The notes under the pieces: model-generated | Told to the model about the DNA's origin: nothing | Databases searched by the model: none | The model's input: only the letters and a program-made list of their open reading frames with translations | Source: Agelas oroides | Lineage: Eukaryota > Porifera > Demospongiae > Agelasida > Agelasidae | Direction of reading: 5' to 3' | Length of the DNA stretch: 64,000 nt | Assembly: GCA_949130485.1 (NCBI GenBank) | Contig: OX422196.1 | Span: 3,516,889-3,580,888, forward strand | Position numbers and translations under genes: made by a program | Part shown: piece after piece, positions 1,479-54,494 of the stretch | Position numbering within the stretch: the first letter of the stretch is position 1 | How the letters are laid out: each line of letters starts with the position of its first letter

Positions 1479-1577
1479 GATGGCTGGACAGCAGTGATGT
1501 GTGCATGTCAGGAAGGTCATGAGCATGTGGTGGAGGCACTACTAAAGAGAGGGGCCACTGTGGACATTCAAACAGAG
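1479..1577 (+). CDS. Gene A ankyrin exon, type A
   Basis: 99 nt, acceptor CTCCAG, donor GTAATA. One repeat starting DGWTAVMCACQEGHEHVVEA and ending DIQTE. Arg replaces the usual Gly in the LLKxGA turn. Most upstream exon seen of gene A. Confidence 0.85.
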
Positions 1578-28510: not shown

Positions 28511-28582
28511 TTACATTGTATGGATCGTTGTACAGTTAACAGCATGCAGGGTTGTTGTCATCACTATCACTGTCATTTTCTC

Positions 28583-29223: not shown

Positions 29224-29384
29224 TTTAGACCTCAGTGTAGCATCATCTACCTCTGTTAGTGAGAACTTCCAACTTCCTCAACTCGCACACTATCACAACG
29301 AACACCCCAACTCAGCCCTAGTCCCAGATCTCGTGCCCAGCTCCACCCACTCAGGAAATGACATGTATTCAGAGGGTGCGGCCT

Positions 29385-29431
29385 CCATTTTCTGGTTGCT
29401 ACTTTCGTCCGAGCTTTCGTCTTTGTGAGAG
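29385..29431 (+). promoter_or_regulatory. Probable promoter and non-coding first exon of gene B
   Basis: The GC-richer stretch with a CCTCCATTTTCTGG motif is followed by a strong donor, GAGAG|GTAAGT (donor at 29432). The next + strand acceptor with a good coding exon is at 31535, three bases before the CARD start codon. The same block with the same donor recurs at 58330-58372. The 5' limit is a guess. The stretch 29160-29430 may also drive the - strand gene. Confidence 0.45.
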
Positions 29432-29540
29432 GTAAGTCAAGTGAGTAACGTACTGATGGTAGCGTTCTCCCCTTCATTCTAAACTCTGAAGGGTCTCGTC
29501 AAGCCATGATCAGACTGTGTGAGGGTTTATTGGTGGGTGT

Positions 29541-31537: not shown

Positions 31538-31832
31538 ATGAGTTCTGATGATGCAAGACAGCTTCGCTTGGAGAAGAGTGTGTTGGAGAGCAACTACAGT
31601 TTTCTAGTGGAGGCTCTTGTTCCAGAAGACATAGTACCTGAGTTGTTCACACAGAAACTGATCACAAAATCCCAGAAGGAGAAGGCCGATTCACACCCAC
31701 AGAAATATGCTAAAAATGTAGCAATCATGGATTCCCTGCTAGGTCGGGCAGAGGTGGGGGCCTTCCATCGGTTTTGTGATGTTCTCTCAGTGACCTCTGG
31801 GCAGGAGTACATTGCTGTCAAGCTTAAAGAAT
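31538..31832 (+). CDS. Gene B exon 2: CARD domain
   Basis: This exon encodes about 98 residues. The pattern LEKSVLESNYSFLVEAL, then DIVPELF, LITKSQKEK, a basic turn, IMDSLLGR and FHRFCDVL..SGQEYIA matches the six-helix CARD fold: an L-x6-L start, a D-I/V-L-F second helix, 'I-T-x-x-Q' before helix 3, and 'F-x-x-F-C-x-x-L' in helix 5. The donor GT at 31833 splits a Cys codon (phase 1) that is completed by the acceptor at 31975-31976. A death-effector or DEATH domain is a weaker alternative. Confidence 0.82.
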
Positions 31833-34800
31833 GTAGGATGAATGTGTTGAATATGTATTTGAGGTTATTTTAGACAAAATGGTAGCTGGTGAGGTTAATT
31901 TTTACTGTATCAGGTAGTTGTCTGAACATTAAAATAGTTGCATTCAAAGTGACCCTAATGATCATCTGCTCTGCAGGCTTCCAATCATTGAATCAAAGTG
32001 AAGATCCACATTCTATAATTGCTGCAAAGCAGCTCAAGTCCCAATCCACCACTGCACATGGTGAATTGGTGGACATTCCCCAGCTACTCATTGACCTAGT
32101 GAAGATACTAGAAGAAGAGCCTGGTGTACTTGAGAAGATGCAATTTAAGTTGGAATTGATGGTGCTGTCTTGCTGTGGCAACATCATCCACATTGTGGAG
32201 TCCACACAGTACAAAGAAGCCAAAACTGTACGAGCCTTCTTTCGTGCAATGACTCCCTATTTCAATCAAGTTAGCCATTATCTATTTCGATCTGTTGTTG
32301 TGGCTTCTGAGTGCAAGGAAGCAATTCAAAGGCTGGACAAGTATCTTGACGCAAAGGACCCTAGTGCTGTTGTCATTCCCCCTCCACCCAGCTCTGACAG
32401 TTCAACATCTGGTTCTCCAGCCACAAAGTCTATTGATGTACCACCTTCACCTCACAGTGGTCTGACAGCTGGTGTATCTCATGTCCCAGCAAGGACTGGG
32501 CGGAAGCCTAGTGGCACCATCTCCATTTCTGCAGACATAGAATGCAGCAAGCTCACTGTGGAAGAGTACACACTAGTGCACCATCATATCAGCTCACTTC
32601 TGCATCTACCAGCCGTAGCCCTCCGATATGATCATCACCAGGAACAATGCTCCATTAGATTGTTCTGGTTCATTTCAAGAGAACTTGCATCATACACTCA
32701 GGCAGCCCTGGGAAACACCATGACTCCCCAACTGGGAATTCTTCGTTGTTTGGTCAACTGCAACATCAAGGAGGTCTCCATTGGGGATAGAAGCTATAAG
32801 CTTCCTACTCACCTGGTATGCTACATTCATGCAGGAGTGTGGTTTGTGTTACTAGGCTGAGATTATCCTTCTGTACGGTGTGTAGTATGTAATCTTCCAA
32901 AAACAAACCAATCCCTCTATTTTTGATTGAAGCTATTTCAAAGGGTCTTTTCATCATGAAAGTACGCCCACCGATTTATACTGTAGTACAGGCTGTTATA
33001 TCAAACAAGAAAGCATTGGAGTTACAGTACTGTAACAGTGAAATAGACAGCTTAAGCAAGTGCATGACACATCGCATGCATAGAGCTACAAGGTTAGAAT
33101 TGACTCACATCTCTCCTATAGGAGATGGGCTACCTTGAGGCTGCTTGGGATGGATCAGTTGAAGGGGTCTCTGATGCCCTGAGAGCTGGAGTTCATGCTG
33201 ACACCACCTCTCTTGTGAGGAACTTTGGTAGTTTGGACTCACCACTTCTTTTAATACATATGCACATCACACTGGGACAGCATTTCAGCAACAATCATAA
33301 CTTTAATACACCAAGTTACATTGTCAGTGCTAAATGTAAGACCACAGGTATAGTGTTATGCTAGAAATGAGTAGTCGTATGCTCAGGCCTTTCAAGTACA
33401 AGACTGCAAATGGTGAAGAGCATTCAAATCAATGAAGTGTCTGCTGTCTTTGTCTTCTAGTGACAAACAAATATGGACAGTTCTCAGTTCTCAGGAACCT
33501 CATAATTTCAAGCTAAAAATGGTGTAATCCCTGGACTTCTTGAATTGTGCCAGACAACTAGACTAGAAATGGTGTACTCCCTGAGTGTCATGTTATCGTG
33601 TGCTGCATACAATATTCAATGAACAATAGGTCTTGGACTAGCATGGTAGTTTGCAAAATCTTATTTGTAGCATTGTATCACATTCAACTGACATTCTTCT
33701 TCAGGCAACTAAGAGAGTGGCATATATGTATGCCATTCTCTTAGTTGCCTGAAGACATCATCAACTGTCCAAGATCTACTGCTCTTTGAATAGACTTAAA
33801 ATGGTGTCATTACATTGGTAGCTAGTAGGTTCACAGACTCGCAGAAAGCACACATGTAGTCACTCGGTTATTTTCAGAAAGTCTCAGTTTGATTCAAGTA
33901 ATAGTCCCACAGAAAGATACCTAACTGCTGAAGTGGGTTATTGGTAGTTTGGAGGGAACCAGACTATGCAAAAAGTGACTACTACAATAGTAGCACAATT
34001 TTAACCGCACACCACTTACAAACTAATTAGTGCTACCTTGTTTGAAAAAGATGAAAACAGGTTTCATATCTGTGTTCTCAAAGGCATTTTGTAAATGCTA
34101 CTCTTTAATCATCAGAGTTCTTGGGTTTTGCATTTGCTACTTAATTGGGATGTACTTCACTATGGAATTAACAAAGGCAATCCCCAAATACTCAGTGTTA
34201 TTGATATAGTAATCATTGCTGAAGGGCATGCTAGTGAATCCTTGTATGATTGTGGCATGCCTTGTTGATAATAATCTCATTTGGGATGCTCACCTGGATG
34301 CTTTTGTTCTGCAAAAGGATGTTGGTGGTAGCACATGTGGAGTAGAAAAGTTCAACACAATGATGTCCCTTGATTTTTTTTTTGGTGTGTGTGTGTGTGC
34401 TTTTTTATGAGGCTAACCGCACCCCAAGTGGAAAGAAAATGGTGACTTGGATGCAGGTGGCTTGAATGCAAGTGGACAAATCAGCTTGTCCTGCCATAAA
34501 GGAGTCATTAAGCTAATTAGCCCACTAGGTACACATAGTGTGGAAGTCAACCGCACAAAGCGTTTTGAGAGATGTTGGTCGGTGTTGTAATGAAGAGCCA
34601 TTGCCATCAAAAGCACTGTGGATGCACGGGATGTGCTGTAGTGCAGCAAGCCAGTAGCTAAGTGTACACTTCACTGAAGTGTCAAACTGACTTGTAGCTC
34701 AGTGTGGCTGTGCTGTATTGGTAGTCTGCTACCAGAACATTGTAGCTAATAGATCTAGCTTGTTAACAATGTGCCTTAGTCCTTATACAAGGCTCCAGAG

Positions 34801-37800
34801 CTGCAAGTCAGGATGAAGTTTGTGTGACCACTGAAGTGTTAACATTTTTGATCATAACTCAGGCTAGCAGTGGTTTAAGAAAATTCCATATTCTCATCTT
34901 TAGCAAATGTAAGTACCTTCATATTAAGATAGCTAGTTTGACCACTTTATAATCCTGTGTCACCATAGGTCCAATTCATTGATGGCAAATGTTTGGCCCT
35001 GTGCAATCGCCGTGGATTATGTCTGAACCTTGGCGCTTGCACAGTAGATACCGTCATTAATCGTTAGACAATTTCAAATCTGGCCTCCTTTAGATTAGAT
35101 TCATAAAACTTCCAGGAAGCCAATTTCTTCCATTAGATTAGATTCATCGTTGTAATGGAGCACATTTTCCAAGAAAAGCATTAGCCACGCACTAAGGCCT
35201 CTTCGCCCAAGGAAGTGTTGCCTGTAGTACTAAATTACCATAGGCTTTCCCAGAAGTGTAGTAGGCTCTGAGAACTTCAATCGTCGGAGCATCATTCTGC
35301 CAGCGACTATTGTCCGTACTTGTTTTGATAAGAACACAGTCTGGTTGCATTACAACGCCTCTGCAGTGACTTCACAATGTTGTTTTGATAAGAACACTTC
35401 CTTGTGCACTCGGTCTGCCAGGGACTTCACCTTTTTGTTGCTAAGAACACTTCGTTGTGTCTACTACAATGGGCTCTTCCACTAAATTGGATTCACTCGA
35501 AAATAATTAGTGCAGCTACCTTCGCATAATTGGATTACCAAAAATCGCAAGAATTGAATTTCTTCCGCTACATTGGATCTACCGTTCTATTCGAATAATG
35601 ACGGTACTTCAATAACTGTTTCAAGCTGTGGTATCAAACTTCAGTAAGTCCTCTCAGGCTGGGAAAAACATTGGACATACATGTGCACTTTTGTGGCTTT
35701 TCATTCATCCATTCATTCATTCAGTCATTACTATTTTCTTTGTTGTAATTTGTTCCATAAATGTAGAGTTTGGTGCTGAAAATACTGTTTTAAATTTTGA
35801 GCATCATGCTAATCCCCTCCAAGTCACTTTAGCAATTTACTTGTGAAAAGAATACACGTACGTAGGCTCAGAGGATGGAGCGTTTGAAGTAGTATTTTAC
35901 ACTGTTTGATTTCTTTGTATACCACATTGCACTCATATACAAGTGTTGAAGGCCAACTTGCTCTGTCTGATAATTTCCACTGTAGAATGGTGTAACGGCC
36001 TTGATGTGGGCCTCGTTATGGGGTCATCTCCAAGTTGTGGAGAGAATACTGGCAGCGGGGGCCCAGCCTGACCTTCAGAATAATGTAAGGATAACATCTG
36101 AATGTACTCAAGTACATAGGCTTCTTAAAGGCCTAAGTTAGGTGTATTTGCTTGTGGCACCTTAGTGACAATGGAATCATGAACTTGTTGTATGTAGAGT
36201 GGAAGAACTAGGCTAATGAATGGTTGCTTTATGTACATGTATTATTCTTGTGCCAATTAGAACGGTACACACTGGAGGTGCCTAGTAAAGCATTTACCCT
36301 GTATTCTTTCTTCTTAAAATAAGATAGATATTGTAGTGTAGGTCCAAGCTTCCAGCTCCACAATGCCGAGATTCCAGCCCGCACTCACGCCGAGTTAGAC
36401 TCAGGAAGCAGACTCAAAGAATTGTTGCAGCCAAATAGAAGATATAATAAACACTTTATAGTGTGATACCAATTTCATGTGCATGACATGGACAATGGAC
36501 AAATGTTATAAAATGTTCCAATTAGGGTAGTCCAATTATGGTTTTGTCTGCTACACTAGGAACCACTTTCATGTGTAGTCTCATATCCCACCTGGTAACA
36601 AGACTAACTGTTATTGTCCCACTCCAGGATGGCTGGACAGCAATGATGTTTGCATGTCAGGAGGGTCATGAGCATGTGGTGGAGGCACTACTGAAGGGAG
36701 GGGCCACTGTGGACATTCAAAATGAGGTAACACCAGTCATCACTTGACAGTAGGTCCTCCTCCATTACACCTACATACATATGTAATGTCAGTGATATCA
36801 AAGTACCTTGTGCCTAATACAAAGAGTTTAGTACGTATATCCCAAAGACATTACATCAGCCAATAAAGTGCACTGTAATAGTATGTATTGTAGAAATGGG
36901 CAGTCAGGTGGTAGTAATGAACATCAATCACTGAACTGCAGTATTGATGACTTATTATCACGACAGCCTGTTGTACTTCCATTTTGTTGCGCTGATACTC
37001 TAATTTTCAAGCATGAGAATAGTTTACCACTGAAATAATTGTATGACTGTTCCACTTGAGTTGGAATTCCTGTCATAGCTCCATGTTGCCATGGCAACAA
37101 CATCATTATGAGCATAGTACAATGGTACCTTCAACCATTAGGCATGGTTGATTTTCGTTAAGCAGTCACAGTTGTGAACCGACAAAGTTAAACACAACAG
37201 TTCAGCCTCAGTTGTCCTTCACTCTCCTCTCAGACTGGCCAGACAGCTGTCATGTCTGCATCCTTTAGAGGTCACCTTCCTATTGTGGAGAGACTGCTGG
37301 CAGCAGGGGCCCAGGCTGACCTGCAGAAGAAGGTACTGCTAGTTCAGTGTTTACTCACGTATCTGATTACTTTGAAGAGTTTAGTACGTATATCCCAAAG
37401 ACATTACATCAGTCAGCAAAGTGCCAATATAGACTGTAATAGTATGTATTGTAGAAATGGGCAGTCAGGTGGTAGTAATGAACATCAATCACTGAACTGC
37501 AGTATTGATGACTTATTATCACGACAGCCTGTTGTACTTCCATTTTGTTGCGCTGATACTCTAATTTTCAAGCATGAGAATAGTTTACCACTGAAATACT
37601 TGTATGACTGTTCCACTTGAGTTGGAATTCCTGTCATAGCTCCATGTTGCCATGGCAACAACATCATTATGAGCATAGTACAATGGTACCTTCAACCATT
37701 AGGCATGGTTGATTTTCGTTAAGCAGTCACAGTTGTGAACCGACAAAGTTAAACACAACAGTTCAGCCTCAGTTGTCCTTCACTCTCCTCTCAGACTGGC

Positions 37801-40800
37801 CAGACAGCTGTCATGTCTGCATCCTTTAGAGGTCACCTTCCTATTGTGGAGAGACTGCTGGCAGCAGGGGCCCAGGCTGACCTGCAGAAGAAGGTACTGC
37901 TAGTTCAGTGTTTACTCACGTATCTGATTACTTTGAAGAGTTTAGTACGTATATCCCAAAGACATTACATCAGTCAGCAAAGTGCCAATATAGACTGTAA
38001 TAGTATGTATTGTAGAAATGGGCAGTCAGGTGGTAGTAATGAACATCAATCACTGAACTGCAGTATTGTATGACTGTTATTATCATGACAGCCTGTTGTA
38101 CTTCCATTTTGTTGCGCTGATACTCTAATTTTCAAGCATGAGAATAGTTTACCACTGAAGTACTTGTATGACTGTTCCACTTGAGTTGGAATACCTGTCA
38201 TAGCTCCATGTTGCCATGGCAACAACATCCCAATGAGCATAGTACAATGGTACCTTAAACCGTTAGGCATTGTTAATTTTCATTAAGCAGTCACAGTTGT
38301 GAACCGACAAAGTTAAACACAACAGTTCAACCTCAGTTGTCCTTTACTCTCCTCCCAGGATGGCTGGACAGCTCTCATGTCTGCATCCTCAAGAGGTCAC
38401 CTTCCTATTGTGGAGAGACTGCTGGCAGCAGGGGCCCAGCCTGACCTGCAGAAGAAGGTACTGCTAGTTCAGTGGAGGTGGGAAGTAGAGCAATCAACAA
38501 AATCACTTGGTATAGACTAGTATGTAAGCAAAGAGCCGCCTGGTTTTGTCAATAATGGGTGTGACTCTTGTCCAACTAACAGTACATTTCACCAGTAAGG
38601 ACATGCTTATCACTAACAGCCGATCTGTTCTCAGACTGTAGTTGTGCCACTATAGACATTCAACATCTTACCTAACTAGGAAGAGAGTGGAGGTCACTGA
38701 GTGCAGCATGTAACCTCAGTGTTTACTCATGTATCTGCTTACTGTATCAATCTTTTTGTTTAGAACCACAGATTGTGTGTCCAACATTGTCATGAGAAGT
38801 TTTGTTTTCATAGCCATTGTAGTAACTTTAATTGCTAACAGTTACTTTCAGCCATATATGTAGAAACTAGGGGAATGCAGTGCATTGTGGGGGCGAGCGT
38901 GAGCAAGTTGCATGGTGCACTAGTGTTTCATAGCACCACCTTTACCCACTTGTATACATCTCACATAACAATTCTGCCAACATCAGATTCTACGTACACT
39001 TGTTAGCTTTCTACTGGGAGCAAACTGTCTTTACCAACCATGCATGGCTTGCACCCTGACCAATCTATAGGAACAACGACATCAGTAGTAATTTGACTAC
39101 TTGCATAAAATGTGCGGATTGTACACGTCATCATTCATGTTACATGGATGATCATGTTGCTCTAACGGATCTCTTTGCCAACAGCATTAACACCAGTATG
39201 AAAAAGCAATTCAGTTATGTTTATACAATTGAGTAAAAGTAAGTTCAGTTAGTCAATGCATGGTTTGATGGTGTGTGTCTATCTCTAATCCGCTGTAACC
39301 TCGCTTCCGTCTCTTCAGGAGTCTCTGATGCCATTCTTTCACGCTTACAGGTGCTCTTCCGCTGTAATGTGGCTTGTCTCTTACTGGAAGTTTGAGCAGC
39401 GTGCCTGGGACGATCCCTCTCCTTCCACTTTCTCAACCATTCGCTCTTCTGTTGCGCCGTCTCTGCCGCACGTTGAGCCCTCTCGTTCGTTCCTGCTCCG
39501 TCGCCGGTCTTCTTGCTCCTGCGGTGATTTGAGTGCTCTTCTAGAAGTGCTCTGTGTGTCCATGTTCAATACAAGTAGATAAAAAATTTCTCAAGCAGAA
39601 CTCTGAAGTGGAACTCTGAAGTAGAACTCTGAAGTTGAACTCGGAAGTTGAACTCTGAAGTAGAACTCTGAAGTAGAACTCTGAAGTAGAACTCTGAAGT
39701 AGAACTCTGAAGTAGAACTCTGAAGTAGAACTCTGAAGTAGAACTCTGAAGTAGAACTCTCTAAAGTAGAACTCTGAAGTAGAACTCTGAAGTTGAACTC
39801 TGAAGTAGAACTCTGAAGTAGAACTCTGAAGTAGAACTCTGAAGTAGAACTCTGAAGTAGAACTCTGAAGTAGAACTCTGAAGTAGAACTCTGAAGTAGA
39901 ACTCTGAAGTAGAACTCTCTAAAGTAGAATACAGCAAAATGCGTGACCACGTGTTCTTTTCGATATTCTGTCCGCACGTACTCGGCGCGCGCATTGTTTC
40001 GTGTTAAAAGAGTGTAAACATGCATTTATGGAATGACGTACGGCACAAAATAATTATATGAAAAATTCCAATTCGACTCACTAGTGTGGGGCTCGCTCAC
40101 GCTCGCCCCAATAACAGTGCAGCAATGAGCCACTGTTTTAGACCCAGTCGGTATTAGTTCGTGCTCTTCATCTGAGTGAGCTCCTGTTGTCGTCCCACTT
40201 CAGGATGGCTGGACAGCAATGATGTATGCATGCCAGGAGGGTCATGAGCATGTGGTGGAGGCACTACTAAAGGGAAGGGCCACTGTGGACATTCAAACAA
40301 AGGTAATACCAGTCATCACTTGACAGTAGGTCCTCCTTCATTATACCCAAATATCAGAATATCAAACTGCCTTGTACCTAGTACAAATTGTAGCATATCC
40401 CGGCGACACTACATCAGTCAACAAGGTAGTGGTCATCAGAACTGCAAAGTGCACTACACTCTGTTACAGCACTGTAGTACTGAAGCAGTGAGAATCAATC
40501 GTTGAACTGTTTCAGTAGTCAGTCGAAAAGCACTTCTGTATAACCGTACCATCATGACAGCCTCTTGTACTTTTTCACTCTTGTTTTGTTGTTTTGCATT
40601 GAAAATCTAGCTTTCAAATGTGAGCTCAGTATACCAGCGAACTACTTGTAAGAATGCACCACTTGAGGTGGAGTTCCTGTGATATCTCCATGTTGCCATA
40701 GCAACAACACTGTTATGATTACCAGAAACTTATGAACCACTGTGCAGAAGGAGTGTCAAACTAGCATATCCATCTTGTGTCGAATGACACTTTAAAACAC

Positions 40801-43800: not shown

Positions 43801-46800
43801 AGTACCGTAACCCTCGCTCCGCATGCGCGCCGAGGGTTAATAACAGGATGATTCTGCATGTGGTGCACATTTCTGTGAAGCAATGAGCCAACAATGTGAG
43901 ATCCAGTGGATATTAGTTCATGCTCTTCATCTGAGTGAGCTCCTGTTGTTGTTGTCCCACTCCAGGATGGTTGGACAGCAATGATGTATGCATGTCAGGA
44001 GGGTCATGAGCATGTGGTGGAGGCACTACTAAAGGGAGGGGCCACTGTGGACATTCAAGAGGAGGTAATAGCTTGACAGTAGGTCCTCCTCCATTATACC
44101 CACATACATATATAATGTTAGAGTTATCAAACTGCCTTGTACCTAGTACAAATTGTAGCATATCCCGGAGGCACTACAACAAAGAAGTTGTCATCAGAAC
44201 TGCAAAGTGCTACTACACTACATAACACTGTAGTACTGAAACAGTGAGAATCAGTCACTGAACTGTTTCTGTAGTCAGGTGAAAAGGCACTACTGTATGA
44301 CAGTACCATCATGACAGCTTTTCCACTCTTGTTTGATTGTTTTGCATTGAAAATCTAGCTTTCAAATGTGTTTACCATTGAAGCCCTTGTAAGAATGCAC
44401 CACTTGAGGTGGAATTCCTGTCATATCTCCATGTTGCCATAGCAACAACATCATTATGTGCACTATACAATAGTAACCTATCCTCACTCATCAGACATGG
44501 TTATGTTTTGGTAAACAGGTCACAGTGGTGGGCCAACAAATGCCTTGTACCTAGTGCAAACAGATTGCTACACATTCAATAAATTGGTTCTTATCATGTT
44601 CAAACTAAGTGCCAATACACTCTGTTATAGTGTTGCTGCACTGTAGTAATGAACATCAATCATTGGACTGACAGCTGCTACTATTGTATGGCAGTATCAC
44701 CGTGTAAGCCCTTTTCACTCCTTTTACGTTGATAATTAGCTACTGCTAGTTTTCAGATGTGAGTGTATTCTTCCCTAAGTGACAACAAAGTATAGAGTAG
44801 AGCTCTTGTAATCAACTGAATTACATTGATAATGGATGTGTTGTTCACTATTGTGAAAAATGAAAACTCTATAAAAGCTGTGTACCCTAAACCAATTATA
44901 CACCACATGTCCCATCACTAGAAGAATGTACCACTTGGGGTGGAACCCCTGTCATGTTGCCATAATCTAATGTGAGCACTGGTAACTTCCTCAGCCATCA
45001 GACATGGTTACTTTGTTGTCACACTGGCAAGGGTTTATTTGAGGAATAGTAGCCAATAAAAAGGTATCCATATTTCTCTCCTCCTCCTCCTCCAGGATGT
45101 TGTTACTGCTTTGATGATAGCTGTCTACTATGGTCATTCACACATTGTTGAGGTCCTCATCAGATTCAAACCTGATGTCAACCTTCAGATCAAGGTGGGT
45201 GTGTTGACATACTGTAGTGTATGTAGTGCATGTGTGTGCTGTGCAGTTACTTGTTATATATGATAGTATCTATATATACAAATGCCCTTTTGTTGGTCAG
45301 GGGGACTGGATCTTTGGGATGCACTAAGATCTGGGATCCAGTCCCCCTCAACCAATGAAAGGGCATTGTATACCGGATCCCCTGCTTGGATTGTGGGATG
45401 ATGTATGTTGGCCAGAGTGGGCGTGCCCTAGAAGTCCGCAAGAAGAACACATGCAAGCCCTCACAAACTCTGATGCAATGACCTCGGCCTTAACAGAAAA
45501 TGCTATGGACACTATGCACATGATAGCATGGGAAGACGTAGAGGTCCTAGCCTCCAACCCTCGCCCCCATTAGCACTGTGCCATTGAGGCCTGACACATT
45601 CAGTCTCAACCTCTGCCGATGAACAGAGAGGTTGGTCTTCTGCCCCCTGTTTACAACAAACCAATCAACAGACTCTCTTGAATTTCCATGTTCTCTGTCT
45701 ATGTAAATTTGTCACTGTAGTTTATGTTTCCAATTGTCACCCATTTCTGGTTTATATGTGTATTTAAGTGGTCTTTGTAGCACATGTTGTATACCACTGA
45801 AGAAGACTGCTGATTAGCGTGTCGAAACATTGGGTGTCAATTTTAAAACTTGGATACTGTTTGCTCAAAAGAACCCAAACATGTAATATTATTGGTAGCA
45901 TACAGTTATGTATTAGCTGTGATGTATTTTAGTCCTAGAGTTTCTCTCCCTGCTAGCTCCTGTTCCATGGCTGTCTAGAACAAGAGATACTGTCAGCAGC
46001 TGATCAGTTATTACTAACCTCTATCACCAATGTACAGCACTTGGAACTAACAAACCCCTGCGAGTTTTTATGCGAAATTTCTTGTTATGATTTATCGAGA
46101 CGCCTTACCTAAATGTTTAGCTTTTATCGCATGTTAATAGCTTGCTTGCAATCAGAGATAGAATACTGGCAAAAGTTAGCTGCTACTTAGAAAAGCTGAA
46201 GAAGCATTTTCGTTTGCATGGTACTGGATGCCTTTATGTGGGGGCCTATGTCTGTATGGGTGCTTATAAACACAATGTGGTTGCTGTAATGCTTATCTTC
46301 ATGGGTGGTTATTTTGTATAGGTGAATATTGAAATGAAAGGTAAAATTTTCAAGCTTATAGAGTATTTGGAAAGCAAAAAGAAACCCTGGACATGCTTCT
46401 CTTCCAAACAGTCATCCTGGCATTTGGCTGCATGTCCAGGGTTTCTTTTTGCTTTCCAAATACTTTACAAGACATTTAGATACCTGTAACTGAGCTGGGG
46501 CTTTTTTTTTTTCACTCCTCTTTCGTTCTCTCTCTTTAATGAGAAATGATTAACCTTTAATTTATGGGCCGAGTTGTGAGAATGTGTAAGCAGGCCTGTG
46601 TATTCAATCATACATCTCAGGCTATGATGTTGAAATCAAACAAAAGTGCAGCCAAATTAAAAGAATTGGGCCTCTTCCACTCAAGTATATAGATGCTACT
46701 AAAATACCAATTTTATTGTTGTTAAATCATGCTTTTCAGATCAAACTAGCCAAAATAATTGCAACCAAAAAATATATATTGTAGCTACAGCATACAAAAT

Positions 46801-49800
46801 CAGCTACTAGTGTTTAACAGAAAGTGAACCATTAATTATGTTTACAGGTTAAACTACTAACTGACTCCTATGCACTTCAAATTTACAGAACCATGCATAC
46901 TCAAATTGACAACCAACCATAACAGTACTCAGACTGGATAGGAGCCATTATTGCAGCCGCCCCAAATTTTACATGTGCAAGAAAACAACAACCCAATGAA
47001 AGCAAAAAAGATGGTTGGAGCCCATAAACTGAGTTTGACTACATCGCGATAGTACGGGTCATACTGAACATTGACATGCTGACACACAAACAGACTGACT
47101 GATTAACACCTCTTGTGCATACAAAACCAGGGTAATCTCTCTGTCCGGTTTATCTTGAGGGCACAAATCCATGCATGACAACACAGAATCTTCAAAACTT
47201 GCCATACAATCTCTTCACAATGCACCACAGCTGTTGCAATTTTAGTTGAGTGCCATTTCATTCTTCTCACGTGGTACTGTACTTAAATTGAGCAATTCAT
47301 TACACCTCACAGTCATCAGTACCATGCATCTTAAGTATGTATGCATACTTTGCATATGGATGTTAACCCACCAGCCTGGGCTGTCTAGACTGTGCTCCTG
47401 GACTGCACTACTAGGCTGACCTTTTCTTACTTTCTTGTACTCTCATGCAATGCTGTGTGGACTATGCAAGATAATGCAATGTGATGCAGGAATGAGATCC
47501 TCATCACACACTTTATACAACTGGGTGTGAACATATGCCGCTGATTATAAGAGCATGTGCATGCAGGTACCATCTGTGGACCTTTGCATGAGGTTAATTT
47601 TCAAGCAGTGCATGCACAACCACAGATAGGAAGCCTGAATCTTTGCTATCAGAAGTACTTATGGTGCCTTTACCAACAACAGGATGGAGAAACAGCTCTG
47701 ACATTTGCCTGCAAGAAGGAAGACCCGAGGAGTGTGGAGCTGCTACTAAAAGCCAGTGCTGACCCCAACCACACGACCATGGTAAGTACTGTGGGAAAAC
47801 AGCCTCTCCTTCAGCTTATTAACTTTGTAATTTTTAACTTTAAACAACAATTGAATCATGTTTTTGCTGTAGCTATTTACCAGGAGCAAAAAGTAATCAG
47901 TTACCTGACCTTTTCACATCAACTGTGCGTACCTAGCGGTAAATTAAGTTATCAAGTAGGTGGAAACATACCCATGACCTTTGTCTTGGCCAGTGTGAGA
48001 AGTAATATTTTCCATAACACTAACTGTCAACCACATAGTTACATGAATGTCTTATAAAATACAGCAAGACTGTGAGAAATGGGTATTTAGCACAGAAACT
48101 ACTGCATGAAATAAGTACTCATTCTTACCTTTGCAGGATGGACAGACACCCCTGCTGATAGCAACAAGGAAAGGTTCCAGAATGATCATAGCTGCACTGC
48201 TGGAGGCTAATGCCAATCCCAACTTTATGCTAAAGGTGTGGTTTATGTTGTTCAATTTTTACCCACTAGTGAAAATGTAGAACATTGTGGGGGGTTAGCT
48301 TGAGTGAGCAGTGCAGAGCAGCATCATTTGGTTAGCTATTAGCCTTTCCACATGCAGATCATGTCTGAGGCTAAAAGGGATTATCACTCTCTATTGTCTG
48401 TCAGCACAACGCCCTACATTAGCTAGATAGTTTAGAGAAGTTGCCATGCATACAGTGAATAACTTACCACTACCAGTCCCGTTTAAACTGAGCAGTTTCA
48501 TCCATTAACATGAAGTGGTTTTCTAAAGCATATTAGGGCATTTACAAAGTTGCCCTAAACCGATTTGTAAACTGATGTGGAAGCAGTTTAAAATGACAGG
48601 ATAGTCACAGCGGGCATGTTTTATGATATATATCGTCAAATTATTTCTTGCTCAGAATTTCTCCAAGCACAACAAAACCTACTGAACACAAACAGAGAGG
48701 GTATTCATATAATTTTATAGCTTGTTATGTACACACACACCATGCATGTGTACATCCTGATAGACACTGAGCAAAAAAAAAAAATCTCCACTATGAAGTA
48801 CTGTAGTGATTTAGCCCTACTGCTGGAGGTACATGTTTATAAACTGTAGGGCAACTCAAAGCATTTCACTGCTATGGTGTGTATACCTTGGAATGTTTTT
48901 TTTCTTTGTTGTTGAGTTATAGCATAAGGTGATGGTACACTATATAGCAACCTACCACAAGAACCACAGTGCAAGTCATTCATATCTGCATGCACACAGT
49001 ACTTGTAAAGTGATTCACTGGTCATTGCAACTAATATTTGTTTGTGTGGTTGGCAGAAACACGAAATTATTCATGATCTAGATACTGCTATAACACAAAG
49101 GAGTATTGGAACCCGTGATTGAATGTATCCAAGTTGTTAAAACCTTTGAACTGTCGGTCAAAAAAGGTTTGAGTTCCACCAGCCACCACTGGAGAAAGTT
49201 GCTCTCTCCACTTGTCACCCTGGGACTTTGGGTCTCCACACCATACTTGGAGAGGTATAGTCAATGCTGCTATGAGTGTTTGCCCCAGCTTCAGGAGTTA
49301 GTTTGTCTAGCACTGCATGGCCCAGTATTCCTGAAGTAGTACTAATTAGTTGGCCAGGGTAGCATATCCTCTTGGGTAGCTCCTTACATTTTTCTGTACT
49401 GCTGACATGACTAACAGAAATTTGTACTACTGCTAGGATGGAGTAACCCCTCTGATGCTGGCATGTGATGAGGGCAACATTGAGATGGTGGATCTCCTCC
49501 TCCAGTACAGTGCCGACCCCAACCTACAGCAACCGGTCAGTAAAATATAAGTACTATACAGTACCTGTTCTGTTTGCTGGGAGGTCTTTGCATGGTATGT
49601 AGTTATAGTGTATGGAAGCATTATGCAGGTCCATGGTACAAACATATCAACACTTCACATTCTTGTTTGAAATCTTTTATTGACAGTAGCATTTCAAAGG
49701 TTTCACATCTAAAAATTGCTGTTGACACCCAATATTGGAAGAAAGTTTTCTACTATTCGGCAGAGAGACTACCGTAGTGTCCCGCAAATACGCCCCCCCT

Positions 49801-52800
49801 CGCGCATAAGCCCCCCCCTCTGCATTTTTAGCGCAAAGTCTTGCAGAGGTATTTTATTCCCGTGCATAAGCCCCCCCCCCCCCCCCAACTATATATGGCT
49901 GTTACCAAAATAATTTACTAACAACTATGTGTGGCAGTCCCGTGTAGAAATCGAAGGTTATTCTGTCGCGTATTTCGATCACATTGCTGTGTTTGAAGTG
50001 CCATATCGCTGAACTTCCCTTAAGGGCGGGGCTCATATGCGCTTCGTAGATTCATTAGATATTCAATTATTCATGCATCTTCGAAGCACGTATGAGCCCC
50101 GCCCTTAATGGAAGTTCAGCGATATGGCACTTCAAACGGAAGTCGCTAAGTTGACCCAACCCCATGTGGTGACGTCAGAGGTTCAAAGATTAATTTGCAC
50201 TGGCTCCTTACACATGCGCACAACTGCATGCGCTCAACTGCATGCTGCAGAAAGCTGTACTTGATGCGCTGGTTGTCTGTTGTTGGCTAAATGGTTAAGG
50301 GTTAGGGTTAGGGTTAGGGTTAGGGTTAGGGCTTGGGGCCAGGGAATGGTACTTTTTTTTCCCTCTGGTTTATAAGTGTGGTGAACACCTGTCTTCGTTG
50401 GCTCGGTATCCTTAAGTGCGCGCGATGGGTTAGTTATGGATATTCAATAGATGACGTAACCGCATGGAGTTGGGTCAACTTAGCGACTCCCAGCTTCAAT
50501 CACAGCAATGTGATCGAAATACACAACAGAATAACCTTTGATTTCTACATGGGACTGCCACATGTATAAATAACATCATTCCAGATAGCAACTGCAAAGT
50601 TGTCAAAATTAATGCGTTCTCTTCTTCTATCTGGACATGAAGTTGTGGGCGGGGCACCGGAAGGGAGGGCGTAATTGCAAGAGAAAATGTCGCATCCTGC
50701 GTATAAGCCCCCCCCTGCGCTTTCTACTAAGGCTAAGGTTGCAAAAGGGGGGGGGCGTATTTGCGGGACACTACAGTATATGTATATGCCCACTTGCACT
50801 TACAATACAGAAGGATAAGCTTACTGTGGGCTACATTCCCACCGAGATCTATCTAAGACAAGGGACACAAACACCATAACTGTTGTTCTCATTTGTTGAC
50901 TCTTGCACAATACGTACATGAGTCAGCACACATTGCCAAGAATAGCCTCACTTCCCAGCATTCTGGAGGCTAACCATGAATGGATTTTGCAATATTGCAC
51001 AATTGTATGGTGGGTTGTTACACAGAGGATGCTATCAAATTACATATGGAGGGTCAAAATCGGGTGTGCATGGGTGCTTGTCTGTACAATCAACAGCAGC
51101 ATAACCTGCTTAAGCTGGAAAAAGAATGCTGGAAATATAGTGTCTTAGTCCTGGCCCTTGGCTAAAACTTAGTACTTGATAATGATTAGTGTGTTTACTA
51201 GGACTACGCATGCGTATGATGCCTCGCGCCGCTCCAAGCGCCATGCGCGGATGGGGCGCGCGGCGCAGGTGTCAGGCGTTGCTCGTCTAGTGGGAGTCCA
51301 AAGAACAGTACAAAACAACGGTAACGTGAAGAGTGAGTCTAAATACCTGGCTTGTGAACAATCTCCAATACGTGCTTTCTACTTTGAACTCTTTCTTGTT
51401 CTTCTGTCGCTCTCTTAGCTTTCTACGGTGGGCTGACTTCTTTGCTTTTTTTTTTCCTCAGAGTCGGCAGCCGTCGGCTGCGTTCAGCACTCATTTGTGC
51501 ACTTCGCTCCACAAATACGTACGTTGCGAAGGGCCAGTCGCGCTGTCCTCCCCGTCGTCCGTCGGCAAGAAACGTCGTCCCAACTTCGTCGTGTAATGCA
51601 CGTATCCGATATCCTGCCTGGGCGTGAGCACAAATTGACATTGCGAGCGTTGACCTCAAATTGACATTCCTAAGGCTAAGCGATACCGCAAACTGACATT
51701 CCTAAGCGTGACCGACACGTACGTACGTACGCACGCACGTACATTGCGAGAATAGATCCCTCATTCAGAGCCTCGCGCTAATGCGCTCGGCAATAAGTGG
51801 ACTTGTGACCACTTTCATCTGCGAGCAATAGGCCTATACAAAAGATATGTCCAACTGATATCTATCTCTACAGCAAACTGGACATACTGCTCTGATGTTA
51901 GCTGCTAAAGTAGGTCACCTGAATGTTGTTAAGAAGCTCATCACCAATGGAGCTAGGCTGGATATTACAGACAAGGTGAACTCTCTGAGCACTACAGGCA
52001 TACACTGCACACAGGTAGCCTCGTTCCCAGGCCCTGCGCGCGTTCGTCGCTTGCAGTACGAAATTCGCGCAGAGGGCCTGGGCTCGTTCATCACGTGATG
52101 CGTGCCGCAGCTTACGTTACGACCCTTCTACTAGAATCAATGATGTCATAGATGAGCTAGCGCCTTGTTTACCGTTGAAAGAGGCCCCCCGAGATCACAG
52201 TAATGGTGCGTGGGAACTTACCTAAGTGTTAAAAGTCTCGGCAGCGCAAGAGCACAAGCTGCCATGCTTAGGTGGATAGTAGACGTCTATATTCAGATAC
52301 CTTGGCCACATCGTGTTACTAGGTCGAACCTGGATTTCGGCTCCTTGTCTTCAGCTCGAGTTGACTATTGTAGTCTACCGTACGCGCATGACCTGTTCCA
52401 GGTTCTTCCAACTCATTTGTGGTGATCTCTGCAACACAGCGATTTTGCTATATCTGGTGTGACGTAAAATGACGCCTGCGGCACGCATCACGTGATGAAC
52501 GAGCCCAGGCCCTCTGCGCGATCGCGAATTTCGTACTGCAAGCGACGAACGCGCGCAGGGCCTGGGAACGAGGCTAGCACACAGGTGCATGCTCAACATG
52601 TGACAATGCTGTGTAGCTTGTCAGCTAACTGTTGCTTGTATTGCCACTGTCAGCTCACAGCTTCCCATACTTGACTTGTATGTATTGAGATTTGGGAAGC
52701 AGTTAAAAACTATGATCAACTTGCTATGTAATTTACTTAGCTACAGATTGACTTTACACAACTGCAACATAATGTGTAAAATTCATGAAACATTCTTTAA

Positions 52801-54494
52801 TTGGTCTTTCAATAGTAAGCTCAGTAAAAATAGCTTTATCTCACTTACTGGAATCTTTTATCATATAACTCAGTGTCATGGATGTCACCAAAGCTTCCAT
52901 ACAGTCGTTCCGCCTGTGACAATACACAGACGATTATTGAAAAAAAACGGAAAGTGTATACGTACAAAAATTCCATCATTTAATTAACGGCACCTTATCT
53001 CAGAGGGTTATTCGAGTACACGCTTAGTTTCTGCATATATTGTAGCCCTGTTCCAGTGCTTTCAAATGGTACCTGTTCCATGCAGCTCAGGGGAGGCGAA
53101 CAAAAACGTGCCACCAAAAACTGCACCCCTGTCGCACGAGACCGTACGATTGAACCATCCGTAAACAATGGCTTTCCTATGCAAAGTGGTAAGAAGCTGC
53201 AACTTGAAACGTTGGATCTCGATAGTAGACTCATTGGTCTATAAAACCGCTGGCAAAGTAGGCACCTACAGCTTCCTGCTTGTTGGCAAGAGACTTTGAA
53301 AACTCACCGGAAACCAAGGTTCCGTTAATTAAACGATGGAATGCACCTGCGTTTTAACTTCCTGTTTTTGTTTTTTTCAATAATCCCTGTTTACTTGTCA
53401 CTGGCGGAACGACTGCATACGCATGCATTTACGTTTACGCACCGATAACAAGTGATGATCAATGATTACGATCACTACGTAAGATCTTCGAATGAAAGAC
53501 AGCTGCACGAAGAACAGCTGCATGAAGAGACGGTGATTTCGAGGACTCTCTACCGAATTTTGAATAAGGCCAGCCACCTGACTGCATTCTGTGCATGAGA
53601 TAGCAGTCCCCATCTCCCGGTCACCCTAGCTGATGAGGCCTGGTATTGGCCGAAACACGTCCTGCGCAGTGAGTGACTTTGCATAACATCTAGGCCTGTT
53701 TTATAAGGGAGATGTGGTTCGTTGATTGTTCATACATTGTATGAATGTACCAATGTCATCCCACCAAGTTCAGATTGTGCTCTATCTCCTAGAATGGTAT
53801 GACAGCTGCAGACATGGCTTCCATCAGTGAGCAGCCAGATGTATACCAGGAGCTTGTGGAGGCAAGCTTCATCTTTTCCACAATTATGCAGGTATACTGT
53901 CTACGCGGTACAAAATTGTAGCCACTGATAATTGTAGGTGTGCAGAAAATACTCACCACATTTGAATATGTCAGTGAGAGTTTTTTGTTCATAGTTTTAA
54001 TTTAGAACTTTGCTGTTTGAGTTTGGATGGAGGGTTATTGCACAGAGCAGTCTAATGCTTTTCAATGTTGTGTACATTTGTGAGGATGTGTGTGCATGTA
54101 TGTATGTGATTTGTGTGTGTTTCTTACCTAAGCAACACACCAGAATATAGAGCTGAATTTCATAATCTCCACTTCTCTTTCGTACAGTGATGTCACCTAT
54201 AACTAGCTATTGTAATTGAAGCTTGCCTATGTCAGTGGTATTGTTACTGTGGTCTTGTCTTGCATACAGTCTGAGAGTGGAGGGCAATTTGAGACAGTCC
54301 AGGCAGACCAGCAGCTGTCACGTGCTGAGGTGGAAGGTGACCTTTTTGGGATGCTGCTCAGCACCCTAGTGTTGAAATTGGACGGGGACAGTGAGCTCAT
54401 GAAGGCACTTCACACCGAACTCCAACCACAAGAGACAGGGTCAAGGAAAGGGGTTCAAGATGTGACTGAACATTGCTTTGAAGAGAATGATTAG
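31538..54494 (+). CDS. Gene B: complete CARD-central region-17 ankyrin repeat protein
   Basis: Exons 31538-31832, 31977-32815, 33122-33214, 35986-36084, 36628-36726, 37234-37332, 37795-37893, 38359-38457, 40204-40302, 41109-41207, 41933-42031, 42566-42664, 43966-44064, 45096-45194, 47683-47781, 48137-48235, 49437-49535, 51874-51975, 53793-53891 and 54270-54494 sum to 3039 nt: 1012 residues plus stop, with all junctions in frame (one phase-1 intron after the CARD, phase 0 elsewhere). Order: CARD (about residues 1-98), central region with Pro/Ser-rich linker (about 99-378), ankyrin repeats (about 379-938), tail (last 74). The start ATG lies 3 nt after an acceptor (TGTAG), so the upstream exon is non-coding. 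CARDs recruit signalling partners by homotypic contact and ankyrin arrays bind proteins, so a cytoplasmic sensor or adaptor role is plausible but inferred. No nucleotide-binding (NACHT), kinase or transmembrane segment is visible, so this is not an NLR. Confidence 0.85.
31977..32815 (+). CDS. Gene B exon 3: central region of unknown fold plus Pro/Ser linker
   Basis: This 839-nt exon encodes about 280 residues. The first half is helical, with leucine- and charge-rich segments (DIPQLLIDLVKILEEEPGVL). A low-complexity linker follows (VVIPPPPSSDSSTSGSPATK, several SPxSG motifs) that could be a phosphorylated hinge. The last ~90 residues (LTVEEYTLVHHHISSLLHLP ... IRLFWFIS ... ) look like a compact mixed alpha/beta module. 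I recall similar 'H-x-x-S-x-L-x-x-P-x-x-A-L' segments in other invertebrate multi-domain immune-type proteins but cannot name a family. The exon joins the CARD exon in phase 1 and ends in phase 0 (donor 32816). Confidence 0.72.
33122..33214 (+). CDS. Gene B exon 4: N-terminal capping ankyrin repeat
   Basis: Encodes 31 residues: MGYLEAAWDGSVEGVSDALR, then AGVHADTTSL. The 'L-x-A-A-x-x-G-x-x-x-x-V-x-x-x-L-x-A-G' spacing is typical of the first repeat of an ankyrin array. Acceptor TATAG at 33117-33121, donor GTGAGG. It is 93 nt rather than 99. Confidence 0.75.
33215..35048 (+). other. Gene B intron
   Basis: No exon found by ankyrin motif. Contains a GT tract near 34385 and the palindrome at 33700. 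The 80-base stretch at about 35090-35150 has two ATTAGATTAGATTCAT motifs. Confidence 0.5.
33700..33753. repeat. 54-bp near-perfect palindrome
   Basis: TTCAGGCAACTAAGAGAGTG ... then its complement, around GCATATATGTATGC. One mismatch seen in the arms. Confidence 0.85.
35049..35606. mobile_element. Candidate TIR element with TA ends
   Basis: TACCGTCATTAATCG / CGAATAATGACGGTA, 14 of 15 matching, 558 bp, TA at both edges (Tc1/mariner-like). No transposase; no empty site available. Confidence 0.5.
35986..36084 (+). CDS. Gene B ankyrin exon, diverged type B
   Basis: 99 nt, acceptor CTGTAG, donor GTAAGG. Core NGVTALMWASLWGHLQVVER, ending DLQNN; Trp at positions 8 and 12 is unique in the window. 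Confidence 0.85.
36628..36726 (+). CDS. Gene B ankyrin exon, type A
   Basis: 99 nt, acceptor CTCCAG, donor GTAACA. Phe at position 8 (DGWTAMMFAC), ending DIQNE. Its upstream intron (36127-36600) matches the intron before 1479. Confidence 0.87.
37234..37332 (+). CDS. Gene B ankyrin exon, type B, tandem copy 1
   Basis: 99 nt, acceptor CTCAG, donor GTACTG. Core TGQTAVMSASFRGHLPIVER, ending GAQADLQKK. Identical in sequence to the exon 561 bp downstream. Confidence 0.86.
37795..37893 (+). CDS. Gene B ankyrin exon, type B, tandem copy 2
   Basis: No base difference from 37234-37332 was found by eye; the flanking introns are near-identical too. Recent tandem duplication or assembly duplication. Confidence 0.82.
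38359..38457 (+). CDS. Gene B ankyrin exon, type B
   Basis: 99 nt, acceptor TCCCAG, donor GTACTG. Core DGWTALMSASSRGHLPIVER: a type-A-like start (DGW) on a type B body. Confidence 0.87.
39245..39569 (-). pseudogene. Basic repeat ORF (STPR-like), broken
   Basis: Two overlapping - frames: MDTQSTSRRALKSPQEQEDR then RNERE, and LRKWKERDR ... KRERMASETPEETEARLQRI. The E-T-P-E-E-x-E-A-R-L-Q-R-x-R repeat resembles STPR-type DNA-binding repeats found at the N-termini of some transposon helicase proteins (from memory). Frame broken near 39400. Confidence 0.5.
39590..39928 (-). repeat. 13-bp minisatellite, about 25 units
   Basis: Unit GAAGTAGAACTCT with a few GAAGTTGAACTCT and CTCTAAAGT variants. Since 39 = 3 x 13, all frames stay open (FYFRVLLQSSTSE on -), giving a long spurious ORF. 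Confidence 0.92.
40204..40302 (+). CDS. Gene B ankyrin exon, type A
   Basis: 99 nt, acceptor CTTCAG, donor GTAATA. Arg replaces the second Gly of LLKGGA; ends DIQTK. Confidence 0.86.
41109..41207 (+). CDS. Gene B ankyrin exon, type B
   Basis: 99 nt, acceptor CTCCCAG, donor GTACTG. TDWTALMSAS: Asp replaces the near-invariant Gly at position 2; ends PNLQKK. Confidence 0.85.
41933..42031 (+). CDS. Gene B ankyrin exon, type B
   Basis: 99 nt, acceptor CTCCCAG, donor GTACTG. DGWTALMAASSGGHLPIVER, LLSAGA, ending DLQEK. Confidence 0.86.
42566..42664 (+). CDS. Gene B ankyrin exon, type A
   Basis: 99 nt, acceptor CTCCAG, donor GTAGTA. Ser replaces Trp at position 3 (DGSTAMMYAC); ends DIQTK. Confidence 0.86.
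42665..43051 (+). other. Gene B intron
   Basis: Similar to 10040-10740; broken at 43052 by the zinc-ribbon element and resumed at 43839 (AACAGGATGATTCTGC). No gene. Confidence 0.55.
43052..43838 (-). mobile_element. Zinc-ribbon repeat element, reverse copy
   Basis: Hairpin end on the right (43807-43838, TAACCCTCGCTCCGCATGCG...), then GTCT repeats, ORF on -, and the palindrome GGCACTGAAGTGCC at the left border (about 43064). An uninterrupted related intron is at 10700-10760. Confidence 0.65.
43056..43472 (-). pseudogene. Zinc-ribbon / QEQNRM-repeat ORF, two stops
   Basis: From ATG 43472: MPPTKVCPQCKAAVPVRRK, then TCECCDHVFRSKRKA (CPxC...CxCC, zinc ribbon), a basic stretch, then two units of RQEQNRMHKASMRESE type and WHFSAFHF at the end. 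One frame throughout but interrupted by two TGA codons (after AECNL and after ASETRE). Same organisation as 3289-3587. Confidence 0.6.
43966..44064 (+). CDS. Gene B ankyrin exon, type A
   Basis: 99 nt, acceptor CTCCAG, donor GTAATA. DGWTAMMYAC core, ending DIQEE. Two type A exons in a row here; the intron between them holds a zinc-ribbon repeat element. Confidence 0.86.
44065..45095 (+). other. Gene B intron
   Basis: Ankyrin-family intron, matching about 15880-16520 in its right part. No gene. Confidence 0.5.
45096..45194 (+). CDS. Gene B ankyrin exon (DVVT)
   Basis: 99 nt, acceptor CTCCAG, donor GTGGGT. DVVTALMIAVYYGHSHIVEV. Compared with its gene A paralogue, several changes fall at exposed positions (NI/VV, HH/YY, T/I, N/I). 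Confidence 0.85.
45270..45835 (+). pseudogene. Penelope-type retroelement 3' remnant (GIY-YIG)
   Basis: Same hairpin and GVV/YVGQ region as 16690-16835, continuing (with frame changes near 45430-45450) into KEHMQALTNSD-like, SALTENAMDTMHMIAWEDVE, VLASNPRPH: the conserved end of GIY-YIG nuclease domains in Penelope-like pol. At 45796-45830, CTGAAGAAGACTGCTGATTA then GTCGAAACATTGG resembles the 3' end signature of such elements. Confidence 0.6.
45836..47490. other. Gene B intron, absent from left duplicate
   Basis: Corresponds to a gap between 16835 and 16845 in the left copy. Apart from a hairpin at 46362-46464 I see no gene. Confidence 0.5.
46362..46464. repeat. Perfect-armed hairpin, 35-bp arms
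   Basis: AGTATTTGGAAAGCAAAAAG (46362) onward for 35 bases is exactly complementary to 46430-46464; loop of 33 bases. Confidence 0.9.
47683..47781 (+). CDS. Gene B ankyrin exon (DGETALTFAC)
   Basis: 99 nt, acceptor AACAG, donor GTAAGT. Differs from the gene A paralogue at two residues (Q/E and M/T). Confidence 0.84.
47782..49436 (+). other. Gene B introns around 48137-48235
   Basis: Collinear with 17138-19662 minus the left-only TIR element. A run of A at about 48773-48784. No further gene. Confidence 0.5.
48137..48235 (+). CDS. Gene B ankyrin exon (DGQTPLLIAT)
   Basis: 99 nt, acceptor TTGCAG, donor GTGTGG. One residue differs from gene A (RKGS versus RKSS). Confidence 0.84.
49437..49535 (+). 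CDS. Gene B ankyrin exon (DGVTPLMLAC)
   Basis: 99 nt, acceptor GCTAG, donor GTCAGT. Protein identical to the gene A paralogue by eye; only silent changes seen. Confidence 0.85.
49995..50141. mobile_element. Nested palindromic MITE
   Basis: TTTGAAGTGCCATATCGCTG ... and its complement CAGCGATATGGCACTTCAAA; interrupts one arm of the enclosing element, so it is the younger of the two. Confidence 0.75.
50294..50330 (+). repeat. Interstitial (TTAGGG)n tract
   Basis: About six GTTAGG/TTAGGG units in perfect tandem inside the TIR element. Confidence 0.9.
51191..51803. other. GC-rich insertion in right duplicate, origin unknown
   Basis: The left copy reads directly across (GTGTGTTTATAAGTGACC at about 20768). 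Contains CG-rich frames on both strands (+ 51176-51418; - 51423-51659 with LRKKKSKEVSPP) and a (CGTA)n tract at about 51715-51740. No TIRs or target duplication found. Confidence 0.55.
51874..51975 (+). CDS. Gene B ankyrin exon (QTGHTALMLA)
   Basis: 102 nt like its paralogue. Changes A/V, I/V, S/N and N/D relative to gene A. Acceptor CTACAG, donor GTGAAC. Confidence 0.86.
52016..52576. mobile_element. Mutator-type MITE, 561 bp, right copy only
   Basis: TIRs TAGCCTCGTTCCCAGGCCCT / AGGGCCTGGGAACGAGGCTA extended by inner arms (~85 bp) with ATCACGTGATG. Target duplication GCACACAGG at 52007-52015 and 52577-52585. Empty site in the left copy at about 20982-20990. Confidence 0.9.
52901..53731. mobile_element. 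Composite insertion in right duplicate
   Basis: The left copy is uninterrupted (TTTCCATACATTGTATGAAT, about 21275). Inverted pair CAGTCGTTCCGCC at 52901 and GGCGGAACGACTG ending about 53413; then a segment (53549-53668) repeated in inverse at about 56790-56885, and the 25443-type repeat. Probably two or more insertions. Confidence 0.6.
53793..53891 (+). CDS. Gene B last ankyrin exon, degenerate
   Basis: 99 nt, acceptor CCTAG, donor GTATAC. Begins NGMTAADMAS (His in gene A); otherwise as gene A. Confidence 0.75.
54270..54494 (+). CDS. Gene B terminal exon, 74-residue tail
   Basis: Acceptor CATACAG, TAG stop at 54492-54494. Same length as the gene A tail, with substitutions in the middle and ending CFEEND. 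The downstream hexamer corresponding to gene A's AATAAA reads AATAAT. Confidence 0.75.
   Translation, partial: SESGGQFETVQADQQLSRAEVEGDLFGMLLSTLVLKLDGDSELMKALHTELQPQETGSRKGVQDVTEHCFEEND

Follow-up and report, generated by a model that had tools for sequence, protein, structure and literature searches.

The proteins that come closest in architecture to the one analysed here have been described from Amphimedon, in which, according to the text of a 2021 eLife paper (PMC8195603), 357 proteins with TRADD-N domains of the NCOA6 clade represent a lineage-specific expansion. As that text presents them, these proteins mostly possess one to three death-superfamily domains, followed by the TRADD-N domain and then by a variable C-terminus, the commonest C-termini of the class being ankyrin repeats or an SH3-LRR combination (PMC8195603). 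The same text suggests for such repeats a possible part in recognising invaders and in activating a TRADD-N switch, and states that the vertebrate TRADD-N domain binds the MATH domain of TRAF2 (PMC8195603). Published passages on sponge immune challenge report ankyrin-, CARD- and Death-domain genes among those up-regulated in two sponges given microbial molecules (PMC6208332) and regulated ankyrin genes in a third sponge (PMC8242945); these passages do not name the architecture described below, and the passages of the open-licence literature that were searched contain none closer to it.

The gene under study, here termed copy B, comes from the sponge Agelas oroides. It occupies positions 31538..54494 on the plus strand of the window, a stretch of 64,000 nucleotides of contig C14 (OX422196.1; C14:3516889-3580888), and is one of five copies, A to E, that cluster on this contig. 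All genome searches were run against the 259 Mb of the assembly in its 141 contigs.

Structure of the gene

The 20 spliced exons of copy B add up to 3039 nt, corresponding to 1012 codons and a stop without any internal stop, and all 19 introns are of the GT-AG type. This bears out the closed reading frame and the 17 ankyrin exons that a sequence-only reading of the window had proposed. The encoded protein is predicted to contain, in this order, a CARD, a helical domain, a TRADD-N-like domain, 17 ankyrin repeats and a tail. Exon 1 (31538..31832, +) encodes the CARD (residues 1-98), which is recognised by means of Pfam, its paralogue family and dN/dS ratios. Exon 2 (31977..32815, +), as delineated by hhalign and dN/dS, supplies the helical domain (approximately residues 126-234), a Pro/Ser-rich linker and the TRADD-N-like domain (approximately residues 278-378). 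The array begins with a capping ankyrin repeat in exon 3 (33122..33214, +), identified from splicing and from its counterpart in copy A, and a further repeat in exon 4 (35986..36084, +). These are followed by nine ankyrin exons of an expandable kind with a and b types, exons 5-13 (36628..44064, +; 36628-36726, 37234-37332, 37795-37893, 38359-38457, 40204-40302, 41109-41207, 41933-42031, 42566-42664 and 43966-44064), and by six of a fixed kind, exons 14-19 (45096..53891, +; 45096-45194, 47683-47781, 48137-48235, 49437-49535, 51874-51975 and 53793-53891). Exon 20 (54270..54494, +) encodes a tail of 74 residues and the stop. Each of the 17 ankyrin exons corresponds to a single repeat, with a length of 93, 99 or 102 nt, all of which are multiples of three.

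The presence of 33-residue ankyrin repeats is supported both by these exons and by Pfam, which returned Ank_2 with 500.6 bits and Ank in 15 stretches of the 1012-residue protein. The same search at E<=1 recovered no NACHT or other NTPase domain, in agreement with the earlier suggestion that a NACHT is lacking; likewise, neither the tail nor exon 2, each taken singly, had a Pfam match at E<=1. Exons 6 and 7 have the same sequence across all 99 nt. An assembly duplication was considered as the source of this identity and rejected, given that the 1.1-kb stretch concerned matches its shifted copy at 96.6% and not at 100%. On the whole, the locus looks like a real 20-exon protein-coding animal gene and not a chance product, since copy A retains the frames and splice sites of the last seven exons and the head shows dN/dS values of 0.09-0.41.

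A cluster of five copies

Five head-tail pairs, paired by position, lie within 0.37 Mb of C14, namely copy D (C14:3477261-3498343, +), copy A (C14:3511674-3541223, +), copy B itself (C14:3548426-3571379, +), copy C (C14:3583436-3614851, +) and copy E (C14:3281104-3249198, -). Every one of the five has exons 1 and 2 side by side, and the tail exon was matched five times on C14 and once on C10. Exon-by-exon tracing covered copies A and B, which share exon order, frames and splice sites and possess 15 and 17 ankyrin exons, respectively. Within the window copy A spans 1479..24338 (+), with middle ankyrin exons at 1479-10953, fixed ones at 16521-21457 and the tail at 24114-24338, its first four exons lying upstream of the window. 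Copies A and B both have exon 3, which could not be located in the retrieved flanks of copies C, D and E.

A search with middle exons of both types returned at least 52 matches at E<=1e-8 (150 of 1162 candidates scored), distributed as 7 in copy A, 9 in B, 16 in C, and 10 each in D and E. All except one (51/52) are clean exons of 99 nt flanked by AG and GT, the exception being an a-type exon of copy C (L105, C14:3598521-3598660) without a clean 99-nt frame and donor. As one of the 16 in copy C is not clean, the intact middle exons number 7 in A, 9 in B, at least 15 in C, and at least 10 in both D and E, the counts for the last three copies being lower bounds.

The description of the gene as complete holds for the closure of its frame and needs qualification at the 5' end. 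An AG located 2 nt upstream of the ATG (AG/NN-ATG) is kept in all seven copies compared, while the sequence upstream of it in copies D and E and in the copies on contig C3 differs from that in A, B and C, which together suggest that a further exon precedes the one with the ATG. The end of a candidate 5' exon can be tentatively placed at 29372..29431 (+), with a GTAAGT donor at 29432. It recurs ahead of the next copy, where its end is at 58372, and sits in a repeat of 93% identity (27936-29540 / 56886-58481). Splicing it to exon 1 introduces an in-frame stop with no later ATG, so that this exon would, tentatively, be untranslated. The repeat units, which lie downstream of copies A and B, also contain minus-strand frames, one of them coiled-coil-like by eye; for two pieces of the repeat, Pfam had nothing at E<=0.01.

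The last intron of copy A contains a short LTR retroelement (21612-23881, -) with Pfam matches to an aspartyl protease and a zinc knuckle, whose terminal repeats are 99.2% identical and which looks young. Elsewhere the window contains a Pfam reverse transcriptase match (11200-13250, -), a stretch that appears integrase/RNase H-like by eye (13251-15350; a single frame was scanned and lacked Pfam matches at E<=0.01), and minisatellite-like tandem arrays in the intron between exons 8 and 9 (39589-39929) and downstream of the gene (62417-63099).

The CARD exon

Exon 1, together with the first residues of exon 2, matches the Pfam CARD family (PF00619) with E 3.9e-4 and 20.8 bits; the E-value obtained with the whole 1012-residue protein is 6.8e-3. 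A profile check of residues 1-98, proposed in the earlier note, has yielded a CARD match, albeit under the curated cut-off of 23.9 bits, which is exceeded by the paralogous exons of copies D and E (29.0 and 27.2 bits). The latter two are among the 52 places found by PF00619 in the genome, and the exon of copy B is not.

When used as a genome query, the exon 1 protein matches 37 places at E<=0.01, and 27 of the 30 loci retrieved were aligned, leaving out the near-duplicates L015, L032 and L034. Taken singly, 16 of the 27 aligned exons match Pfam CARD and 8 match CARD_2 (E<=0.1), the best with E 7.5e-12. The profile of all 27 recovered 19 PDB sequences at E<=10, none of them below E 0.001; 15 are natural CARD proteins (E 0.010-1.4), including BCL10, CED-3, RAIDD, MDA5, CARD8 and CARD9, and the other four comprise three designed proteins and one unrelated protein. 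Set against a profile built from 8 unambiguous CARD exons of this genome, the 27-exon profile reached a probability of 97.1%, against 1.6% for the reversed control, and a profile of the five closest copies only reached 82.1%. The single exon gave no interpretable match in a search of PDB sequences, and its AlphaFold2 model, computed from the single sequence without an alignment, has a pLDDT of 42. The prediction of a CARD in exon 1, which lies below the cut-off when this exon is taken singly, is convincing as a family, through its paralogues.

Two conserved domains in the second exon

The sequence-only reading had the CARD joined directly to the ankyrin array. While both the CARD and the long array stand, they are separated by 280 residues, in which our analysis points to a helical and a TRADD-N-like domain. 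Exon 2 as a genome query finds 31 places at E<=0.001, and alignments of the helical domain and of the part following it were built from 29 of the 30 retrieved loci, with one duplicate (L066) dropped. The profiles of the two parts had no interpretable relative in Pfam or the PDB, the single exon had no interpretable match among PDB sequences, and none of the 29 window-type TRADD-N-like sequences matches a Pfam TRADD-N family.

The connection to TRADD-N emerges through other loci of the same genome. At E<=1 the Pfam family NCOA6_TRADD-N (PF13820) finds two places, L069 and L070; in the genome search the former (24.3 bits, E 0.0038) lies above the cut-off of 22.5 bits and the latter (21.6 bits) below it, and in hmmscan L069 falls below the cut-off as well (20.5 bits). 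Their open frames of 765 and 711 residues, respectively, each show by eye a unit of helical domain plus TRADD-N twice over, and L069 ends in a Pfam Death domain. One L069 unit used as a query has at least 144 matching places (150 of 290 candidates scored), which are places and not genes. Many close relatives of L069 and L070 are seen on contigs C8, C9, C16 and others. A reference set of 14 units was hand-picked across this range, three from L069 and L070 and eleven others of the genome. In hhalign comparisons with it, the helical part of the window family reached 98.05% (E 1.5e-13) and its TRADD-N-like part 96.79% (E 2.6e-10), with controls using mismatched pairs and reversed profiles at or below 1.72%. 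The corresponding values for the five closest copies only are 94.6% and 82.2%, and for these copies against eight core units only they are 78.6% and 9.6%; this last drop implies that family members lying in between are needed to make the TRADD-N assignment.

On C3, units detected with the TRADD-N query (E 1.9e-7 and 3.7e-7) lie 1.8 and 2.8 kb downstream of two CARD exons that share their strand and are 63% identical to the exon of copy B. In Pfam, three of four unit sequences, a C3 unit among them, match TRADD-like_N (PF20694) below its cut-off (E 1.7e-4, 0.004 and 0.018); four whole-locus translations, in one frame each, did not match this family, and a search of the whole genome with it gave nothing at E<=0.1. 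At several places on C3 (approximately 0.45-0.80 and 13.9-16.1 Mb), helical or TRADD-N matches lie about 8-36 kb from NACHT matches, and these could possibly be TRADD-N-NACHT genes or mere neighbours.

At the tiny-Ser/Cys motif of the turn between strands beta2 and beta3, a Ser or Cys occupies the aligned column in 10/29 window-type sequences and in 12/14 reference units, and the copy B protein has Gln-Cys-Ser there, shifted by one residue. The AlphaFold2 model of exon 2, from the single sequence without an alignment, is weak (pLDDT 48) and displays a beta-alpha-beta-beta-helices-beta-beta topology. Foldseek searches with it returned a best E of 0.18, and hence no match at E<=0.001, in a list with many folds that we take, from their names, to be ferredoxin/RRM-like. 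A relationship of the helical domain to the CARD was also considered and rejected (0.3-1.1% in profile comparison; no Pfam match below E 0.01). Taken together, exon 2 appears to encode a conserved helical domain and a TRADD-N-like domain, the latter being identified indirectly, via intermediate members of its family.

Selection on the head and variation of the repeats

Across the ten pairs formed by the five copies, dN/dS ranges from 0.09 to 0.41 in the CARD exon and from 0.20 to 0.40 in exon 2, and both exons are under purifying selection. Among five pairs examined by part, the ratio is 0.19-0.38 for the helical domain and 0.10-0.23 for the TRADD-N-like domain; in the linker, which has few changes, it is 0.50-2.31 in four pairs and undefined in one. 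The last six ankyrin repeats and the tail, compared between copies A and B, have dN 0.050 and dS 0.126.

The middle repeats of copies A and B (n=16) show a pooled dN/dS of 0.48 for the a-type and 1.81 for the b-type. Over all five copies, the b-type exons (25, of which 20 are distinct) have pN 0.074 and pS 0.043, with pN exceeding pS in 1803 of 2000 codon bootstraps, a suggestive excess that falls short of significance. For the ankyrin repeat we assume seven ligand-contact positions, taken from DARPin design and shifted by hand to the exon numbering. At these the b-type pN is 0.185, as against 0.040 at the other positions, a value that random sets of seven positions reach in 88 of 20000 cases, although the random-set and bootstrap counts overstate independence because the repeats are related by duplication. 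The a-type exons (26, of which 21 are distinct) show no such enrichment, 7492 of 20000 random sets reaching the observed value, and their most variable position is 32. Overall, b-type variation is located mainly at the usual ligand-contact positions, and a-type variation is not.

Proposed function and alternative explanations

The domain composition is best accommodated by a cytoplasmic sensor, in which binding to the ankyrins probably clusters the CARD/TRADD-N-like heads and thereby starts a cell-death or immune response. For its ligand, clustering, partners and output we infer the following scheme. The ankyrin solenoid would bind a cytoplasmic protein, either of foreign origin or one of the host's own that infection or stress has altered, and binding or clustering would gather several N-terminal units. 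The CARDs so gathered might nucleate CARD assembly, the TRADD-N-like face might recruit a TRAF/MATH-type partner, and the resulting cell-death or immune response would be produced without a nucleotide-driven switch. A cytoplasmic sensor had been suggested from the sequence alone, and the suggestion appears reasonable since it is mainly at the usual ligand-contact positions that the middle repeats of the b-type vary. A role in recognition is further supported by the difference in repeat number between copies, and is weakened by the a-type repeats, which lack the concentration of changes at contact positions.

These a-type repeats and the last six, all of them well kept, would be more readily understood if the ankyrins held a host partner that stays constant, with the CARD/TRADD-N-like part linking it to caspases or TRAFs, as in a scaffold or adaptor acting downstream of other receptors, such as the NACHT proteins of the same genome. 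The genome has at least 105 NACHT matches (105 of 314 candidates scored), none of them listed on C14, that could lie upstream of it, and purifying selection on exons 1 and 2 is also compatible with a scaffold. However, the location of b-type variation and the range of 7 to 15 intact middle repeats across copies speak against this possibility, as a varying repeat number is more usual for recognition proteins than for constant scaffolds, and we consider it unlikely on balance. Vertebrate CARD-only proteins cap CARD filaments, and a decoy or inhibitor that caps the CARD filaments of receptors would likewise have an N-terminal CARD and, as Pfam indicates for copy B, no effector or motor domain. 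Such a function is quite improbable, since a simple decoy would have no need of the second conserved domain pair and the long array. It is hardly credible that the model wrongly joins neighbouring exons or represents a decaying pseudogene. The open 5' end, the missing exon 3 in the retrieved flanks of copies C, D and E, the absence of AATAAA and ATTAAA from about 500 nt downstream of the copy B stop, the retroelement in the last intron of copy A and the unclean middle exon of copy C could all be cited in its favour, but the agreement of copy A in order, frames and splice sites, the adjacency of exons 1 and 2 in every C14 copy, the clean state of the remaining middle exons and dN/dS values well under 1 in exons 1 and 2 contradict it.

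Returning to the sensor, the cluster might be viewed as a receptor system that has no motor and diversifies along two routes at once, through the gain and loss of whole repeats and through changes at b-type contact positions, though we hold this to be rather unlikely. In such a system, with one exon per repeat and all exons in phase, unequal recombination would add or remove complete repeats in the central part of the array; the changing contact positions of the b-type repeats are presumably 1, 3, 8, 11 and 12. Both the CARD/TRADD-N-like head and the final six repeats would stay fixed. If true, individuals would differ in array length and contact surface, with a bearing on immunity or self/non-self recognition.

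Exon coordinates and domain limits are now available for a CARD/TRADD-N-like/ankyrin cluster of five copies, situated in an animal genome of large contigs that is also rich in NACHT and TRADD-N-type matches. The tandem copies clearly illustrate how repeat exons are gained and lost, and hint at diversification of contact sites. With a defined gene, it becomes testable how early-branching animals may sense invaders without a nucleotide-driven switch.

Comparison with known systems

Some NLR receptors combine a CARD with a long repeat array, as is the case here; however, NLR receptors have a NACHT domain, and the copy B protein is without a NACHT or other NTPase domain. NF-kB p100/p105, the ankyrins and DAPK1 resemble it in uniting an ankyrin array with a death-superfamily domain, a combination that a published passage also mentions for NF-kB (PMC8260672). 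These proteins differ in possessing a Death domain instead of a CARD, and in their Rel, ZU5 or kinase domains, for which Pfam found no match in the copy B protein. TRADD of vertebrates has its Death domain at the C-terminus and lacks ankyrin repeats. Like copy B, it pairs a TRADD-N-type domain with a death-superfamily domain, which in TRADD is, according to the text of PMC8195603, a Death domain, whereas in copy B it is a CARD.

The nearest counterparts are the NCOA6-clade proteins of Amphimedon. As judged from the text of the paper describing them (PMC8195603), copy B shares with these proteins an N-terminal death-superfamily domain, a TRADD-N-type domain, an ankyrin C-terminus and a lineage-specific expansion; it departs from the class as described there in opening with a CARD and in a TRADD-N-like domain that has diverged beyond the reach of the Pfam models. 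An N-terminal death-superfamily domain, variable C-terminal repeats and an expansion (at least 144 unit places) are all found in Agelas oroides, and the two conserved domains between the CARD and the ankyrins would place the protein in the described TRADD-N class. The gene opens no new class and fits, on its predicted architecture, as a further member of one already described.
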